Below are positions 21,441-41,247 of a stretch of 49,052 nucleotides of DNA, one piece after another; the first letter of the stretch is position 1, and each line of letters starts with the position of its first letter. The notes below the pieces were generated by a model that worked only from the letters and a program-made list of their open reading frames with translations, did no database searches and had not been told where the DNA came from. The translations under genes and the position numbers were made by a program. The DNA comes from Clostridia bacterium (GTDB lineage Bacteria > Bacillota > Clostridia > Oscillospirales > CAG-272): contig JAFVYL010000021.1 of the NCBI GenBank assembly GCA_017508665.1, positions 1-49,052 of the forward strand. The letters are read 5' to 3'.

Positions 21441-21461
21441 TAACTCAACCTAAAACAGAAT

Positions 21462-21541
21462 AAAGTCAGGGGTGCCGAAAGGCTGAGATGACGTGAGTCA
21501 AACCCTTTAACCTGATACGGATAATGCCGGCGTAGGGAGAT
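21462..21541 (+). ncRNA. TPP riboswitch (THI box)
   Basis: The conserved parts appear in order: AAAGTCAGGGGTGCC, GGCTGAGATGA, AACCCTTTAACCTGATACGG and ATAATGCCGGCGTAGGGA. It binds thiamine diphosphate and controls thiT in cis; the terminator at 21571-21607 is the likely expression platform, so high TPP should stop transcription before thiT. Confidence 0.96.
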
Positions 21542-21570
21542 TTTTATAAGATTGTACTATACATAAATCT

Positions 21571-34648: not shown

Positions 34649-34744
34649 AACTATCACTCCTATGGTGTAGTATTTAAATCAGCTATGAGATGATAAGCAT
34701 TTTTCCAAAACAGCTTGCTTATTTCTCGCCTCCAAGCCATCAAA

Positions 34745-35111
34745 ATCTATTGCAAGTTTGATAAAATACCGAGAAAATGCCAAAAAAACCGTTTTTTCGA
34801 GGTAGTTGTCACGTACTTCTACCCAGATAATCAAGCGAAAGCGTATCTGTAAGCTCGCTTACAAGGACGCTCGCGAAGATTGCTCCGTGACGACTCTTTG
34901 TCAAAAGAGTATAGGTGCACAGCACCAAGGTCGCAACGCGAACTTACGTCACATAGGAGTAAGCAATAGAAAACTATTGCGAGTTTGGTAAAATACGGGG
35001 GAAATATCCGAAAAAACTCGTTTTTTCGAGGTAGTTGCCACGTACTTCTACCCTAAGGCGTACCTGTGTACGTCGAGTTTGGGAGAATGCAGGTGAAATG
35101 TCCGAAAAAAA
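34745..35111 (-). repeat. Modular hairpin repeat F, array after rbsK (with expanded hairpin cluster)
   Basis: On the minus strand, directly after the rbsK TGA, comes TTTTTTTCGGACATTTCACC, a hairpin (ACGTAC...GTACGC), then CTTAGGGTAGAAGTACGTG and ACTACCTCGAAAAAACGAG. A second module has the hairpin CAATAG-tttt-CTATTG. It is expanded by a run of further different hairpins (GGTGC-tgt-GCACC, ACTCTTT-tgac-AAAGAGT, TGTAAGC-ga-GCTTACA) before the conserved GGGTAGAAGTACGTG. A third, decayed module (TTTTTTTGGCATTTTCTCGG) follows. The 463 bp between the hydrolase and rbsK hold nothing else. Confidence 0.85.
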
Positions 35112-36050
35112 TCAGATTAAATCCTCTTTGGTAACGAGAGCTCGAACCTCTTCCTCCGTCGGTACAGATGCCGCCGCACCTCGTCTGGTAACAGTAATCG
35201 CGCCTGCGGCTACACCGTACTTGACTGCGTTGCGGATGCTGTCGCTTCTGAGATACTCTATGGTAAGCGCAGCGGTAAAAGCGTCGCCTGCCGCAGTAGT
35301 GTCCACAGCCTTGCCGAGTCTTATAGAGGGGATAACGAAGAAGTGCTTACCGTCATATACGAAAGCTCCGCGTTCACCCTGCTTGATAACTATATACTTA
35401 GCCTTAACTCTCTTGTAGAGAGCGAGTGCCGCGCGAAGAGCGGAATCAGTGCCCTGCGGAAGTATGCCGGTATAGGTCTCAGTCTCGGCCTCGTTAGGTG
35501 AGAAGACCTCAAGCATAGGTAAGTTCTCAAGAGGATAGTCCTTGCCTGCCGGTGCGGCATCAACAAAAATCGGAATACCCTTTGATGCAGCGATTCTTGC
35601 CGCTGAAAGCGCGATATTGAAAGGAATCTCAAATCCCAGATAAAGAGCATCGGGCTGACATTCAAATGCCTCGTTAATGTTGTCAACGGTAAGGTTACTG
35701 TTAGCTCCGGGATAAACTATAATACGATTGTTTCCGTCACTCTCCTTCATCACTACCGCAAGTCCTGTGGGATTCTCACGGTCTACCTTGAGGTAAGATG
35801 TGTTTACACCTATCTCCTTGTAGTACTGATAAAGCTTCTGACCGTGAAGGTCAGCGCCTACCTTGGCACAGAAATAGCAATCAGAGCCAAGTTTGGTAAG
35901 TGCCACAGCCGCATTTGCACCCTTGCCGCCGGGAATATAAGCTACGCCACCGTCATCGATAAGCGTTTCCCCAACCTCGGGCACTTTATACATATTCATA
36001 GACAGATCCATATTTGCGCTGCCGACAACGAGAATTTTTTTATTAGCCAT
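35112..36050 (-). CDS. rbsK: Ribokinase
   Basis: 312 aa from ATG 36050 (GGGTGA upstream). The longer frame to 36179 only covers repeat sequence. PfkB-family motifs: GGKGANAAVALTKLG in the N-terminal third, and DTTAAGDAFTAALT, whose Asp is the catalytic base, in the C-terminal third. Phosphorylates ribose at O5; no ribose transporter is adjacent. Its stop codon directly joins repeat F. Confidence 0.9.
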   Translation of the reverse strand: MANKKILVVGSANMDLSMNMYKVPEVGETLIDDGGVAYIPGGKGANAAVALTKLGSDCYFCAKVGADLHGQKLYQYYKEIGVNTSYLKVDRENPTGLAVVMKESDGNNRIIVYPGANSNLTVDNINEAFECQPDALYLGFEIPFNIALSAARIAASKGIPIFVDAAPAGKDYPLENLPMLEVFSPNEAETETYTGILPQGTDSALRAALALYKRVKAKYIVIKQGERGAFVYDGKHFFVIPSIRLGKAVDTTAAGDAFTAALTIEYLRSDSIRNAVKYGVAAGAITVTRRGAAASVPTEEEVRALVTKEDLI

Positions 36051-36124
36051 TGTTTTAGTCACCCTTTTCGTGTTTTTGAAAAGTCTTTTATGCGATAATA
36101 AATTTGATAAATTGAATTTGGTAA

Positions 36125-36249
36125 AGTAAAATACAGGGGGAAATACCCGAAAAACTCGTTTTTTCGAGGTAGTTATCACGTACTTCTACCCTAAGGCGTA
36201 CTTATGTACGTCGAGCTCGGTAGAATACGGGGGAAATACCCGAAAAAAA
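36125..36249 (-). repeat. Modular hairpin repeat F, copy after the YhaN-like ATPase
   Basis: Begins right after the TAA: TTTTTTTCGGGTATTTCCCC, then the hairpin ACGTAC-ataa-GTACGC, CTTAGGGTAGAAGTACGTG, ACTACCTCGAAAAAACGAG and the start of a second module (TTTTTCGGGTATTTCCCC) that breaks off without its hairpin. It lies between the ATPase stop and the rbsK RBS. Confidence 0.85.
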
Positions 36250-38571
36250 TTATTCTACTACAGAAAGCTGGAATATACCGGGCTTCTTCACCAGCTCGGA
36301 CGCAAGCGCAGACTCGCGCGCACGGCACGTGAAGATAAAGCTCTGATAACCGTCGTCCGCAAGGTGAGAGAGTGACTTCATCATAGACTTTGCGCGGATG
36401 TTATCCTGGTGAGCAAAGCTCTCATCGAGACAGATCGGAGGTTTCTCGGGATAAAGCATATCTATAAGAGCCATTCTTACAGCTATGTAAGCAAGATCTC
36501 TCGTACCGCCGGAGAGGAAATCTACCGTGCGGGACTCACCGTCCTCGGTCTTGTAGCTGACCTTAAGTCCGTCTGTAACGTCAAAATCACCGTACTTCTT
36601 GTCGGTCATAACTCCCATAAGCTCGGTGGAGAATTCACCAAGGCGAGGTGAAATGCCTGCACGAAGATTATCCGAAGCACCCTCAATAGCCTTGTAAGCT
36701 ATGAAGTAAGCCTTGTGCTTCTGACGAAGCTCCTCTATTCTCGTCTCAAGAGTCTTAACCTTGGAATAATACTCTGCGGGATCACCGGAGTTTGCCTTGA
36801 GAGCGGTTATCTCGCTCTCAACGGTGTATATCATTCTGTCAAGCTCAAGGATCTTATTCTTATAAGCGGCGATGGAAGTGATGATCTCATCATGGTTGAT
36901 ATGTGTGAGTGCCTTTCTCTTAAGCGGAGGCACCTGACCGCGGATATCGATCTCGTTCTTGTCGGAAAGAGACTGACGGAGCTCCTTTACTGTGAGCTCA
37001 ATAGTGTTTTTCTCCTCAAGGAGAACTCTCTTCTTCTCAAGGAAAGCAGCAACCTTTGCCTCAAGTCTGTCGAGGAACTCGTTGAGCGAGGATGTCGGAG
37101 GCTCTTCGCCCCAGCGGATAATAACTCTGGTGAGCTCCTGCTTGGAATTCTCATAATTAAGCTTTGCCGCCTCGAGAGCTATTCTTGCATCCTCGGTGGA
37201 TCTGATCATACCGTCTCTCTTAGCACGTGCAGCGGAGATAACAGCAATCTTACCCTTGAGGTCATTATAAGAGGTAACACCAAACTTTGAGGAAAGTGTG
37301 TCAAGGTTCTTCATGTGCTTGAACATGCCGAATGCCGAGTACACCGCGAGCGCGAGCGCGCCTGCACCAAGCAGACCGCCGATAACTCTAAACGCTACGT
37401 GAGCAAGGACACCGTTGGCAATTATCTGATAAACAAGAACCGCTATAGTACCGAGAGCACCTACTGTAGCAAGAGAAATACTCTTGGTAAGCCCCTTTAC
37501 ATATCCGAGAGCTCGCGCGAGGATGTTTTCCTCACCGCCCTCCTCATCTGCGTGCTCTATAGCTCCCTCGATCTCACGGGTGATACCGATGGCGTTCTTC
37601 TCTCTTGTGAAGGCATCGTCCGCATCCGCGAGCGCGTGATAAGCTTCATTTACACCGCGGCGCGCCATACCTATCTCGGTAATATATGAGTCGGTGGGAA
37701 CGTAACCCGCTCTTGTGTTTTCGTTAAGGAAAGCGTTATATGCTTCCGTCTTTTGTACGCACTCCTCCTCAAGCTCGTGGAGCTTGTCGAAGGTATCTAT
37801 GAGCATAACGCTGTTATATGATGAGCTAAGGTCGAAGAGTCTTTCCAGCTTGCTCTCTGCCTCAAGTCGCTCCTGACGGATCTTGAAAAGCTCGGTTTCC
37901 TTTGCGAGTATTTGCTTGTTGTCCTCATTGGAGCGAGCCATAGCCTCCTCGAGTACCTCCTGCTTATGCATAAGCTCGTGGATAACTCCTCCACCGCCAC
38001 CGCGGTGCACAAGTCCTTCCATCTTCTCGGAGATCTTAGTCATGGCTCTCTGGTTATTTATCTTCTCACTGCCCGAGAAGAGAATGTTCTCGATAGACTC
38101 CTTTACAGAGCCCTCGTTGATAGCTGAGTCGCCTATCTGCCCGAGAAACGCGGTATTCTCAAAGAGATCTCTTGTAACGCCAAAGAAGACTTCGCCCGCC
38201 GGCACCTTACCGAAAGCGGTAGCTCCGCTCTCCATATCAATGATAGATGACTCCTCTTTGTATGCGGGTCTGCCGTCCTGCTTAACAGTGGGGGTGGTGG
38301 ATCGGCTGATAAGATATCTCTTGTCCTTAACACGCACTACCATCGAACCCTCGGCCATGCCGGTCTCCCAATTTATTCTCTTTTTTCTTTCGCTGAGCGT
38401 GTCCTCATTCTCTACGGTGTCAAATCCGAAGAGCATATACTTTATGAATGCGGCAATCGTGCTCTTTCCTGCCTCATTCTGTCCTTCAATAACGTTAACC
38501 GTGGGGGCAAACTCAAGTGTCATATCCTTGAGAAGGCCAAAGCTACGTATGTCTATCTTTTCAATAATCAT
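36250..38571 (-). CDS. SMC/YhaN-like AAA ATPase with central membrane hairpin
   Basis: 773 aa, ATG 38571 with GAGGAC. Walker A GQNEAGKST (30-38) at the N-terminus and, at the C-terminus, signature FLSGGTRD near 685 and Walker B ICLDESFAHQD near 713. Between them are two coiled-coil arms and, in the middle, two hydrophobic helices (SLATVGALGTIAVLVYQIIA, and FRVIGGLLGAGALALAVY). This is the layout of YhaN/SbcC-like ATPases that tie DNA-processing to the membrane. The YhaO/SbcD-type nuclease usually next to it is missing; instead a DUF6062 gene lies 20 bp upstream in the same operon. Confidence 0.85.
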   Translation of the reverse strand: MIIEKIDIRSFGLLKDMTLEFAPTVNVIEGQNEAGKSTIAAFIKYMLFGFDTVENEDTLSERKKRINWETGMAEGSMVVRVKDKRYLISRSTTPTVKQDGRPAYKEESSIIDMESGATAFGKVPAGEVFFGVTRDLFENTAFLGQIGDSAINEGSVKESIENILFSGSEKINNQRAMTKISEKMEGLVHRGGGGGVIHELMHKQEVLEEAMARSNEDNKQILAKETELFKIRQERLEAESKLERLFDLSSSYNSVMLIDTFDKLHELEEECVQKTEAYNAFLNENTRAGYVPTDSYITEIGMARRGVNEAYHALADADDAFTREKNAIGITREIEGAIEHADEEGGEENILARALGYVKGLTKSISLATVGALGTIAVLVYQIIANGVLAHVAFRVIGGLLGAGALALAVYSAFGMFKHMKNLDTLSSKFGVTSYNDLKGKIAVISAARAKRDGMIRSTEDARIALEAAKLNYENSKQELTRVIIRWGEEPPTSSLNEFLDRLEAKVAAFLEKKRVLLEEKNTIELTVKELRQSLSDKNEIDIRGQVPPLKRKALTHINHDEIITSIAAYKNKILELDRMIYTVESEITALKANSGDPAEYYSKVKTLETRIEELRQKHKAYFIAYKAIEGASDNLRAGISPRLGEFSTELMGVMTDKKYGDFDVTDGLKVSYKTEDGESRTVDFLSGGTRDLAYIAVRMALIDMLYPEKPPICLDESFAHQDNIRAKSMMKSLSHLADDGYQSFIFTCRARESALASELVKKPGIFQLSVVE

Positions 38572-38591
38572 TTTATGTCCTCACCCTTCAG

Positions 38592-39305
38592 TTATTTGTT
38601 TTCCATTTCCTCACCGAACGAGCCGCCGAGGAATCTCACAGCGCGCTTGACAGAGTCCTTGGAATTATACCACGGCTCTTCGTCGTATCGGTAGTCGAAT
38701 TTTTTACAGAACCAGCTGACGTCTCCCTTCAGCTCGGTCAAATACTTTTTCTCTATGGCGTGTGCCTCATCGTAAAAGTCATTGTAAAGTTTTTTCGGCA
38801 TTTTCTTTGACGCATATTCAAGCATCATACGGTAATGCGGCAAGCAGAACCATGGCTGCTTGTTAAACTTGCGTCTGAACTCGGGATCGCTCTCCCAGAG
38901 ATAACATACCGTGGCTATCATTGCCGAGAGATTTTTGTTTATCCGCGAGCAGATATAACAGCTCTCCTCAAGCTCACCGAGAGCTTCCTTTGCCGCCGCT
39001 CTCCTGTTACCGAGCACTGTCGGGCCGTCAAGTCTTTTAACCACCTCATCGAGATGGCTCTCAAGGATAAGCCCCATGCCGAGCATTCTGCGTCTTTCGA
39101 GCATCATATTGTAATGAGTAAGGCAAAATCCAAGCTCATTGGTGCGGATTCTTATATCCGGCTCCATCATAGAAGCTCCGAGAATTATATCAAGCTCATC
39201 CTCTTGCAGTCGCTTGTATAGCATACATATAGGACACCCACACTCGGGTTTTTCTATTACTGCGTCAAACGCTTCGTTGACGGGGATGGTGTAAATCTGT
39301 TCCAC
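38592..39305 (-). CDS. DUF6062 family protein with paired Cys motifs
   Basis: 237 aa, GTG 39305 with AGGAGG. The N-terminal CGCPICMLYKRLQEDELD and FCLTHYNMML are repeated in the second half as CYICSRI and FCLPHYRMMLEY, so two homologous halves each carry CxxC plus a Cys-Leu-x-His, probable metal sites. These features fit DUF6062, of unknown function. It is the upstream partner of the YhaN-like ATPase. Confidence 0.78.
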   Translation of the reverse strand: MEQIYTIPVNEAFDAVIEKPECGCPICMLYKRLQEDELDIILGASMMEPDIRIRTNELGFCLTHYNMMLERRRMLGMGLILESHLDEVVKRLDGPTVLGNRRAAAKEALGELEESCYICSRINKNLSAMIATVCYLWESDPEFRRKFNKQPWFCLPHYRMMLEYASKKMPKKLYNDFYDEAHAIEKKYLTELKGDVSWFCKKFDYRYDEEPWYNSKDSVKRAVRFLGGSFGEEMENK

Positions 39306-39343
39306 GTTGCCTCCTTGATGCCGAAAATGTTGGCGTTAGGCTC

Positions 39344-39372
39344 TTGAAAAAGGCCAAAATATATGGTAAAAT
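39344..39372 (+). promoter_or_regulatory. Sigma-A promoter of the glycosylase gene
   Basis: TTGAAA (39344-39349), 17-bp spacer, TAAAAT (39367-39372). It is interleaved with the divergent promoter at 39400-39428: each lies inside the other's transcribed leader. Confidence 0.7.
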
Positions 39373-39399
39373 ATATATAAAAATATTATGCCTCATCTC

Positions 39400-39428
39400 A
39401 TTATACTACATAATTTTACGTTTTTCAA
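39400..39428 (-). promoter_or_regulatory. Sigma-A promoter of the DUF6062-ATPase operon
   Basis: Minus strand TTGAAA (39423-39428), 17-bp spacer, TATAAT (39400-39405). The two promoters face each other, so polymerases from both would converge over 28 bp. Confidence 0.75.
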
Positions 39429-39442
39429 TAGGGAGAGAAAAA

Positions 39443-40384
39443 ATGTTTAAGAAATTTGAGGGAGAATTTGAAGGTAAATCGGCAATATATGCGGTAAATC
39501 TCGGTCGGTACAGCCTTAAGGATACTATGGAGTGCGGACAGTGCTTCAGATACGAAAGAGTGAGCCGGAATGACGGAACAGATGAATATATAACGGTTGT
39601 CGGAGACGAGCTTATCAGAGTCGCGCAGAGTGAACCAGGAGAACTTATATTCCCCGAAATGACAAGCGAAGTGTTCGAAAGGGTTGCAGTACCCTACTTT
39701 TCACTCGGACGCGATCTCGAGGCGGTAAGGCAAAATGTTGCCGAGCACACAGATTCGGAGTGGCTGAGACATGCGGCAGACTTCGGCTCGGGAATCGCTA
39801 TACTGTCACAGGATCCGTGGGAGACAATAATATCGTTCATTATATCTCAAAATAATAATATACCGCGTATCAGAAAAATTGTCAGAGAGATATCCGCAGA
39901 GTACGGAGTCAATTTAAGCATACAAAATGACTATAATAGTTGTCCTTTGAGCCTTATTGAAGGTAAGCCGAACGAAAACATCTGCAAGGCATGTGGTAGA
40001 TGTTACACCTTCCCAAGTGCCTCTGATATACTTGATAGGCCCGAGGGACTCCTTCCGTCCAAGCCCGGATTCCGTTACGGATACATACTTGATGCCGCAG
40101 AAAAAATAGCAAGCGGCGAGGTCGATATAGCAAAAATAAAGAGTGAAAACAGTTATGAATACACCCTTGAAACATTAAAGACGATCAAAGGAATAGGCGA
40201 CAAGGTTGCCTCCTGCGCTGCCCTTTTCGGCTTCGGAAACCTCGAAGCTTTCCCAATCGACGTATGGATGAAGCGAGCTATAGATACCTATTTTGGCGGC
40301 AAGCTTGATCACACCGCACTCGGCCCATACGCCGGAATTGCACAGCAGTATATTTTCCATTACATCAGAAACGAAGAAAAGTAA
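39443..40384 (+). CDS. ogg: 8-oxoguanine DNA glycosylase (OGG1 type)
   Basis: 313 aa from ATG 39443 (GGGAGAG upstream). The N-terminal OGG domain (CGQCFRYERV, TVVGDELIRV) precedes the HhH-GPD domain: SQDPWETIISFIISQNNNIP, then KTIKGIGDKVASCAALFGFG, where the Lys in GDK is the Schiff-base residue, and EAFPIDVWMKRA with the catalytic Asp. A Cys-rich segment (ICKACGRCYTFPSA) is normal for clostridial members. Removes 8-oxoG opposite C. Confidence 0.92.
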   Translation: MFKKFEGEFEGKSAIYAVNLGRYSLKDTMECGQCFRYERVSRNDGTDEYITVVGDELIRVAQSEPGELIFPEMTSEVFERVAVPYFSLGRDLEAVRQNVAEHTDSEWLRHAADFGSGIAILSQDPWETIISFIISQNNNIPRIRKIVREISAEYGVNLSIQNDYNSCPLSLIEGKPNENICKACGRCYTFPSASDILDRPEGLLPSKPGFRYGYILDAAEKIASGEVDIAKIKSENSYEYTLETLKTIKGIGDKVASCAALFGFGNLEAFPIDVWMKRAIDTYFGGKLDHTALGPYAGIAQQYIFHYIRNEEK

Positions 40385-40430
40385 TATTGGTACTTAATAC
40401 AATCGATTATGGAAAGGATATTTTGGTAGC

Positions 40431-40907
40431 ATGAAAAAGATTTATTCCACTTTACTAACAATCATAATGTTATTTCTTCTCACGTCATGTGTTGTTGAAA
40501 GAAACGAGTATTATTCTCCGTCACAATCAACTGACCAGATAAAAAGTATCAGTATACATTATGTAACACCTGATGTTACATCCGATTTAAAATTAGGCGA
40601 TACATTGGCGACAATCGACAGTAATGAATATGAGAGTTTTTGCGAGGAACTCAAAACTCTGCTTTATACACACGAAATTATAGTTTTTCCGCTGGTGACT
40701 CAAGACCCCAATTTCTATCACTACGGTTACTTGATAAACATTGAGTACACTAATGGCGGATACGATAGATTGACACAAGGCTTAAGGAGTTGGGGAAACG
40801 GGGATCAAGGTGGTGCCGGAATTGGATATTGCGACGAAGAAGATTTTTATAACATCATCGAGAAATACACTCATTTAGATTGTCACACAGAGAAAGAAAC
40901 GAACTAA
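40431..40907 (+). CDS. Small lipoprotein, paralogue of the one at 13176-13667
   Basis: 158 aa, ATG 40431. Signal peptide with lipobox LLTSC (MKKIYSTLLTIIMLFLLTSC). The mature part repeats the motif order of the other lipoprotein: IKSISIHYV, CEELKTLLYTHEIIVFP, GYLINIEYTNGGYD and EEDFYNIIEKY. It is more AT-rich than the surrounding genes. Function unknown. Confidence 0.72.
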   Translation: MKKIYSTLLTIIMLFLLTSCVVERNEYYSPSQSTDQIKSISIHYVTPDVTSDLKLGDTLATIDSNEYESFCEELKTLLYTHEIIVFPLVTQDPNFYHYGYLINIEYTNGGYDRLTQGLRSWGNGDQGGAGIGYCDEEDFYNIIEKYTHLDCHTEKETN

Positions 40908-40991
40908 CATAAGCTCGATATAGCCAATTAGCTACACCGAGCTGAATTGAAATATTTTTATATCGAATTTTGTCTTTTCAAAACATGTTAA

Positions 40992-41028
40992 AAGAGCCGA
41001 TGCACGATGCATCGGCTCTTATTTTTTT
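40992..41028 (+). terminator. Strong Rho-independent terminator after the lipoprotein
   Basis: AAGAGCCGATGC and GCATCGGCTCTT (40992-41020) form a 12-bp stem with loop ACGAT, followed by ATTTTTTT. The reverse strand has only a short T run, so it acts mainly on the plus strand. Confidence 0.9.
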
Positions 41029-41069
41029 CTAGCTTTTTATTCGTACTTTGGTAGTGAAAACGCTGAATA

Positions 41070-41247
41070 GATTTTTAGAAAGTTTTCACGTTGTTTAACC
41101 CGAAGTCGTAGTTACCTACGACGAGTTTGATAGAATACAGGGGAAATTCCGAAAATCTTGATTTTCGAGATAGTTCTCACGTACTTTTACCCGAAGCAAT
41201 AGAAACCTATTGCGAGTTTGGTAAAATACGGGGGAAATATCCGAAAA
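41070..41247 (-). repeat. Modular hairpin repeat F, two tandem modules after infB
   Basis: Directly after the infB TAA: TTTTCGGATATTTCCCCCG, hairpin CAATAG-gttt-CTATTG, CTTCGGGTAAAAGTACGTG, CTATCTCGAAAATC. A second module follows: TTTTCGGAATTTCCCCTG, hairpin TCGTAG-gtaa-CTACGA, CTTCGGGTTAAACAACGTG. Conserved arms are kept, while the hairpin stems differ but still pair. The 340 bp between the lipoprotein and infB hold only this and the terminator at 40992. Confidence 0.85.

Follow-up and report, generated by a model that had tools for sequence, protein, structure and literature searches.

Scattered genes in a group of gut Clostridia, most of them housekeeping genes, carry directly behind their stop codons a repeat that keeps a fixed orientation to the gene and has stems that differ between copies and still pair. 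Its outer arms repeat the end of the particular gene in inverted form, at pgk and gdhA following synonymous changes with some exceptions, and by both mismatches and folding energy it is the gene-complementary strand that is kept foldable; both features are new here, and the second is unusual. The family is also more general than the original prediction described. It is most likely a REP/MITE-like repeat of which the gene-complementary strand is the selected form. To the fuller proposal, that this strand when folded is the recognition form of a putative recombinase or transposase and that the outer arms are copied at the DNA level, we would give a probability of rather under one half (about 0.45).

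The family is made up of dispersed long imperfect palindromes, each with a core of about 90 nt and gene-specific outer arms. According to the proposal, the folded gene-complementary strand, most likely as single-stranded DNA rather than RNA, would be recognised by a putative recombinase or transposase, which would spread or replace modules and in some manner choose stop codons, while copying of the host flank at the DNA level would have given the inverted outer arms.

The modules of the window and the range of the family

The window (the whole stretch of 49,052 nt that was analysed) is contig C12 of a 1.54-Mb genome assembly, 63.6% complete. The family lies directly 3' of the stop codons of rbsK, a gene for a YhaN/SbcC-like ATPase and infB, on the minus strand and with 0 bp between stop and repeat at all three loci (Table 1), just as the original prediction had stated; its count of five or more modules also holds, four short, one long and one degenerate module having been located. 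Read on the minus strand, the left part of a module is TTTTTTCGGxTATTTCCCCCGTATTcTACC - AAACTCG, leading into a variable hairpin, and the right part behind this hairpin is CTTcGGGTAGAAGTACGTG - xxAACTACCTCGAAAAAA; left and right arm repeat each other in inverted form, though imperfectly.

Table 1. Members of the repeat family, and an associated terminator, in the window
Feature	Position	Strand	Model match	Relation to genes
Short module	36159..36249	-	R1 E 2.9e-26; R3 on + strand E 1.1e-20	T4-7-CGG starts 0 bp past TAA (36252-36250) of the YhaN/SbcC-like ATPase gene
Truncated second left arm TTTTTCGGGTATTTCCCCCTGTATTTTAC	36126..36154	-	read by eye; no model match	past a short spacer, ahead of the rbsK start
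Short module	35021..35111	-	R1 E 8.2e-22; R3 E 4e-16	T4-7-CGG starts 0 bp past rbsK TGA (35114-35112)
Long module, rbsK array	about 34792..35016	-	weak, partial R1 and R3 matches	
Degenerate third module of rbsK array	34700..34789	-	R1 E 4.3e-5; R3 none at E<=1	
Short module	about 41160..41247	-	R1 E 2.8e-24; R3 E 2.3e-23	T4-7-CGG starts 0 bp past infB TAA (41250-41248)
Second module of infB array	41069..41158	-	R1 E 1.3e-19; R3 E 2.4e-17	
Intrinsic terminator, GAGCCGATGCATCGTGCATCGGCTC then TTTT	about 40990..41019	-	read by eye	behind the infB array

In the long module the arms are as in the short form, and the tip hairpin is followed by about 136 nt of additional sequence with several hairpins (34825-34960). 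The same genome (G000) holds four long copies, with this stretch at the same point (the other three are on contigs C22, C34 and C5, loci L012, L025 and L008); three of the copies have it in near-identical form, the fourth in a diverged one. In the diverged stretch some stems seem to have changed on both sides.

By NCBIfam and Pfam, the host genes of the window encode proteins of the PfkB (rbsK), AAA_23 plus AAA_27 (the YhaN/SbcC/Rad50-like ATPase, 36250-38571, minus strand) and IF-2 types; the ribokinase model TIGR02152 gives rbsK 253 bits, below its cut-off of 300. SbcCD removes hairpins formed by inverted repeats, and the ATPase gene is a curious neighbour for a palindromic element. Elsewhere in the window are a TPP riboswitch at 21458-21555 (plus strand; Rfam RF00059, 73.7 bits) and, at 39443-40384 (plus strand), an 8-oxoguanine DNA glycosylase-like gene whose TIGR00588 score is below the cut-off of that model. 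The riboswitch is the only family of Rfam 15 at gathering threshold in the window, none being found for the element. At four loci searched at E<=5, six Rfam matches were obtained, all far below threshold (best E 0.042), among them the trpB motif (27.7 of 59 bits, E 2.1), which overlaps the array on C34; the Rfam families were accordingly set aside as candidates.

Model R1 was made from 11 copies, including the four short modules of the window, so that the E values of these four (3e-26 to 1e-19) are not independent and independence rests on other genomes. R1 gives 31 rows in its own genome, six of them the reverse strand of places already listed, leaving 25 distinct places, and it has matches in 28 of the 40 genomes of the genus (own included). 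A later model built on the opposite strand, R3, has matches in 34 of these 40 (own included), with up to 42 rows per genome; G005, G011 and G034 are among the genomes rich in copies, and G003, G008, G009, G027, G032 and G036 have no R3 match. Under stricter filters, R2 has matches in 11 of 146 genomes of the family (own included), and across the phylum, with stricter filters and few candidates scored per genome, R3 found its own genome and one weak match among 398. Viral contigs had no exact match of the tip pattern. The 189 R1 matches from 95 fetched sources, once reverse-strand shadows and duplicate loci had been removed by hand, gave 160 modules in 102 arrays (65 single, 21 double, 11 triple and 5 quadruple), arranged head-to-tail in up to four units.

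Position behind stop codons and occupancy of orthologous sites

For 89 of the 102 arrays, the 200 nt upstream contain the end of an ORF of at least 100 codons, and the model starts within 20 nt of its stop codon in 83 of these 89 (further away in the other 6): at -5 to 0 in 33 cases, at 1-5 in 11, at 6-14 in 35 and at 15-20 in 4. The stop codons of the 83 are TAA (57), TGA (23) and TAG (3). When ORFs of at least 60 codons are admitted, the figure is 88 of 97 arrays; the same measure taken in reverse orientation, as a control, gives 5 of 44 (ORFs of at least 100 codons) and 8 of 74 (at least 60). Under a null in which arrays are placed uniformly in their gaps, p is 4e-31 for the 65 arrays with a same-strand upstream neighbour and any downstream neighbour. 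The precise placement at the 3' ends of unrelated genes that had been claimed from three loci is thus borne out by a statistical test of the distance to stop codons, as had been proposed. Most hosts are housekeeping genes. Pfam recognises pgk, infB, frr and a glutamate-type dehydrogenase gene (gdhA), and rny, groEL and others were named by eye from C-termini; in Pfam the groEL peptide does not reach the cut-off and the rny peptide has no match.

Stop-adjacency is not universal. At 13 further loci of the genus the element is within 20 nt of a stop in seven and not in six (twice in G019, and in G020, G023, G025 and G026), and in eight other genera 0 of 14 loci are within 20 nt, several of these 14 coming after a different hairpin; a related module lies away from stops in some other species and genera. 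Copies unrelated to stop codons, which had been named in advance as refuting the idea, do exist, but outside the clade of the window. In other species a hairpin of the type AAGGTGAAAATCC...GGATTTTTCC precedes the module, as if it were part of a larger composite repeat (loci L268, L277, L282, L286 (G124), L285 (G096), L072, L073 and L075).

Control of termination, one of the roles first suggested, is not favoured by the sequences. The stems of the window copies end in an A-run, without a directly following U-tract, and infB has its separate terminator behind the array, as also seen behind the element in G189; for the 102 arrays, a terminator-like hairpin is present within 200 nt downstream in 33, as against 0 of 102 control windows. 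A stem ending in an A-run, with a separate terminator downstream, disfavours a terminator function, and an intrinsic terminator is not supported as an identity for the element.

Orthologous sites differ between species in the presence or absence of the element (partly judged by eye). Reading occupancy and subtype by eye, we found the infB site occupied in 5 of 20 readable species, the gdhA site in 7 of 21 (one truncated) and the pgk-tpiA site in 17 of 29 (one degenerate); many of the empty infB and gdhA sites have a plain terminator soon behind the stop (again by eye). Different subtypes are present at orthologous sites, as seen by eye: at pgk, subtype F is present in G006 and another in G000, and rny and the YhaN-like gene have type F in G000 but not in G006. 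Such differences at shared sites suggest replacement in place. At some orthologous genes the element is still present in diverged species, a pattern that resembles vertical retention with a role for the host. No precise recent insertion was caught, the empty infB, pgk and gdhA sites being too diverged to give an exact insertion point, and no target duplication was seen by eye. Examined as a possible MITE, the element has long inverted arms, the outermost part of which is gene-specific, and no direct target duplication by eye.

A Y1 transposase (Y1_Tnp) is encoded in 10 of the 40 genomes and a reverse transcriptase in 6, neither of them in G000 or G006 (both about 64% complete), and the five Y1 loci fetched, out of 12 Y1 matches, had no match to the element. 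The presence of these enzymes does not track that of the element, and they were dropped as obvious partners. Of the two explanations originally offered, a structured 3'-UTR element or one that inserts at gene ends, the second fits better with the subtypes, the tandem arrays and the presence or absence at orthologous sites, although neither a target duplication nor an enzyme was found to go with it.

Co-varying stems, the constrained strand and the outer arms

That the stems differ and yet pair, and that they co-vary, was confirmed when more copies were added. Among 11 copies, 9 of the 26 pairs show two-sided change; among 113 copies, in an alignment fitted to the model so that the figures carry that fit, 25 of 26 do, with 90.9% of cells paired (70.4% in shuffles) and a covariation score of 0.465, as against 0.139, with versions slid out of register scoring about 0.10 or less. 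The CTCG and CTTCGG that flank the tip stem are nearly invariant, and in 59 non-redundant sequences one bulge is kept in 58 and another in 45. Folded as the gene-complementary strand, the element is a hairpin that has CCGAAG-stem-CGAG as its tip, a variable terminal stem and, on the 5' arm, two bulged bases, an A and a C; this fold has 31 pairs, 27 of them with two-sided changes (40 sequences).

Mismatches within the stems indicate which strand is constrained, as an A.C on one strand is a G.U on the other. In the 26 sense pairs given by RNAalifold there is no asymmetry (G.U 60, A.C 63), and pairing at the DNA level without regard to strand seemed at first to follow. This was dropped, because the count had missed positions that are open in the sense fold: apart from many C.A or A.C mismatches, G.U being scarce, these columns are complementary (at four adjacent positions the counts of CA are 30, 12, 19 and 11, and at the tip base that of AC is 18), and RNAalifold had left such A.C-rich helix positions unpaired, so the recount used a strand-neutral alignment. 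It gave A.C 406 and G.U 177 for 129 of 159 modules, the other 30 being dropped where the script did not find the tip anchors. Region by region, the core has A.C:G.U ratios of 68:34, 166:24 and 75:33, and the outer flank has one of 97:86. The excess of A.C points to the gene-complementary strand.

Folding energy agrees. The gene-complementary strand folds better in 134 of 159 modules taken with flanks (p 1e-18), by a mean of 5.5 kcal/mol (0.0 for random windows), and its consensus energy is -22.4, compared with -12.5 for the sense strand of the same 59 sequences. Against dinucleotide shuffling (25 each), z is -5.81 for the gene-complementary and -4.46 for the sense strand, the former being lower in 47 of 60 (p 2.7e-7); as the bias survives shuffling and G+T makes up 0.496 of the sequence, it is not explained by composition. 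Terminator-like hairpins at the same loci have the opposite bias to the element (G.U:A.C 70:41 and 40:17; two stricter settings, with 10:6 and 17:16, give no clear bias), and five tRNAs of these loci give 11:0.

These results bear on the idea that the element acts in the sense strand, as a 3'-UTR hairpin at the stop codon that protects the 3' end of the mRNA or slows the terminating ribosome. A precedent reportedly exists in E. coli REPs close to stop codons, and the fixed, stop-adjacent orientation would suit such a role, as would the terminator further downstream in part of the cases, the housekeeping hosts (pgk, frr and infB, with rny and groEL by C-terminal sequence), the strength of the sense fold itself (z about -4.5) and the plain short hairpin that some 8 of 12 pgk sites without the element bear in its place (by eye). 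It is nonetheless unlikely: both the types of mismatch and the stability favour the other strand, and the terminator-like hairpins and tRNAs of the same loci are biased the opposite way. What stands of the structured 3'-UTR element first proposed is therefore its placement and its co-varying stems, while the asymmetry of mismatches and energy disfavours a sense-strand mRNA structure.

A gene-complementary strand that is transcribed, making the element a structured antisense or trans-acting RNA, would account for the RNA-like signature of that strand (the 31 pairs, 27 of them two-sided, with many G.U) and for the long form, which folds better on it in three of four copies; the C34 long form, however, folds better as the sense strand. 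Many copies per genome (up to the 42 rows mentioned above) lie behind unrelated genes, no Rfam family is reached at threshold, and on the 5' side of the gene-complementary strand sigma-70-like promoters are not enriched, scoring 7.75 as against 7.95 in shuffled sequence (102 arrays). A dedicated sigma-70 antisense promoter is accordingly not supported, and we consider an antisense RNA of either kind unlikely.

Outside the model, the flanks before and behind the first module are complementary to each other, scoring 16.5 compared with 10.2 for permuted partners (sd 0.48, z 13, 101 of 102 arrays), so that gene-specific letters tend to open the stem, at the stop codon or just behind it. At pgk, the last codons of the gene have their pairing partner in the far arm, which tracks synonymous differences between them: GACAAA at the gene end is answered by TTTTGTC in G000, GATAAG by TTATC in G011, and GACAAG by TTGTC in G012, G014 and G194. 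Own pairs beat permuted pairs with P 5e-5 (14 of the 17 occupied sites, in 14 species; G038, G021 and G196 were left out), although the far arm has no good match in G006, G030, G189 and G201. The gdhA sites behave similarly: in G022 GTATAAG is matched by CTTATAC, in G196 GTGTAAG by CTTACAC. At both genes, then, the last codons and the stop are inside a palindrome whose other arm follows synonymous changes. Given that the outer part lacks strand bias (97:86), one simple way to explain it is by copying at the DNA level, although selection is also possible.

Passive mutation might do as much, if template switching at a quasi-palindrome perfected and lengthened the arms, even into the end of the gene. 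The lack of strand bias in the match of outer arms to gene end, and the tracking of synonymous codons at pgk and gdhA, are as this would predict. Template switching should, however, have erased the two conserved bulges and the near-invariant tip loops, and the core is strand-biased; as an account of the whole element it is decidedly improbable, although it may be the source of the outer arms alone.

Comparison with known systems

Literature searches gave no description of this element, which does not prove its absence elsewhere. Among known systems, the attC sites of integrons conserve structure beyond sequence: they have a core of the form RYYYAAC...GTTRRRY, unpaired bases on one arm, and a folded bottom strand that is the active form. 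The element likewise conserves structure over sequence and has a variable terminal stem, a position behind the stop, and a folded bottom strand with unpaired bases on one arm, but this is a likeness of form only. The RYYYAAC...GTTRRRY core is absent, the element having GTT on its 5' arm and AAC on its 3' arm, in the opposite order (alignment A4), and the copies lie at scattered housekeeping genes on many contigs of the genome, with no cassette array seen. It seems improbable that the stop-codon sites are attC-like sites of recombination or transposition with a different core, recognised through the folded gene-complementary strand, to which a putative enzyme would home at gene ends, leaving host-specific inverted arms that can take in the stop.

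A REP/MITE-like repeat, which we prefer, also has parallels. According to PMC3733652, most REPs lie downstream of coding regions, no more than 20 bp from the ORF end for the majority in some genomes, and their termini may even supply the stop codon; work cited in PMC12306157 has REPs less than 16 nt from a stop being able to lower translation. As these papers describe them, REPs are tagged by GTAG or CGTC, associated with RAYT transposases, have G.T pairs in their stems, and have been proposed to have roles both as DNA and as RNA (PMC3733652, PMC12306157). Dispersed palindromes with G.T pairs in the stems are common to REPs and the element, and an extragenic palindrome near the 3' end of a gene (83 of 89 within 20 nt) is found here too. 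REPs are, however, given there as 20-40 bp, and the element is about 90-225 nt, has a fixed orientation to the gene and, unlike REPs, gene-specific outer arms. The GTAG/GGAG foot of REPs is absent: that of the element, read on the gene-complementary strand from alignment A4, in which only the core was aligned and the outer arms left out, is AAUUUUGAG/CCAAAAUU, and GTAG lies inside its tip stem. No Y1 transposase is flanked by the element at the five loci fetched, and no association with RAYT was found.

A 193-bp MITE of Bacteroidales, a different phylum, also invites comparison. It is a high-copy repeat (loci within L081-L196, for example L126, L083 and L090) with 18-bp inverted ends, CCCAAATCGGTCATTAGA; in 66 of 82 copies it is flanked by exact 5-bp target duplications, TTAAA and ATAAA being examples. 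As in the element, a CCGAAG-stem-CGAG tip sits inside a long hairpin, and the CCGAAG...CGAG strand folds better in 77 of 82 copies, the same strand as in the element; in the four aligned loci, R3 matches the MITE over its full length (E 4e-9 to 1e-6). As the MITE was found by way of the tip pattern, identity at its 20 fixed bases follows from the search, and independent evidence of kinship has to come from the arms, the fold and the strand. It differs in having exact target duplications with its inverted ends, the element being without target duplication by eye, and in starting at the stop of a long ORF in only 1 of 16 copies shown with ORF context (L090).

REPs and other small palindromes crowd the ends of bacterial genes, and it has long been asked whether DNA or RNA is their working form, and which strand. 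Strict placement at the stop, a fixed orientation and a clear strand signature make that question testable from sequence for this family; and if the element proves to be mobile, it would represent a system that targets gene ends without harming the genes.
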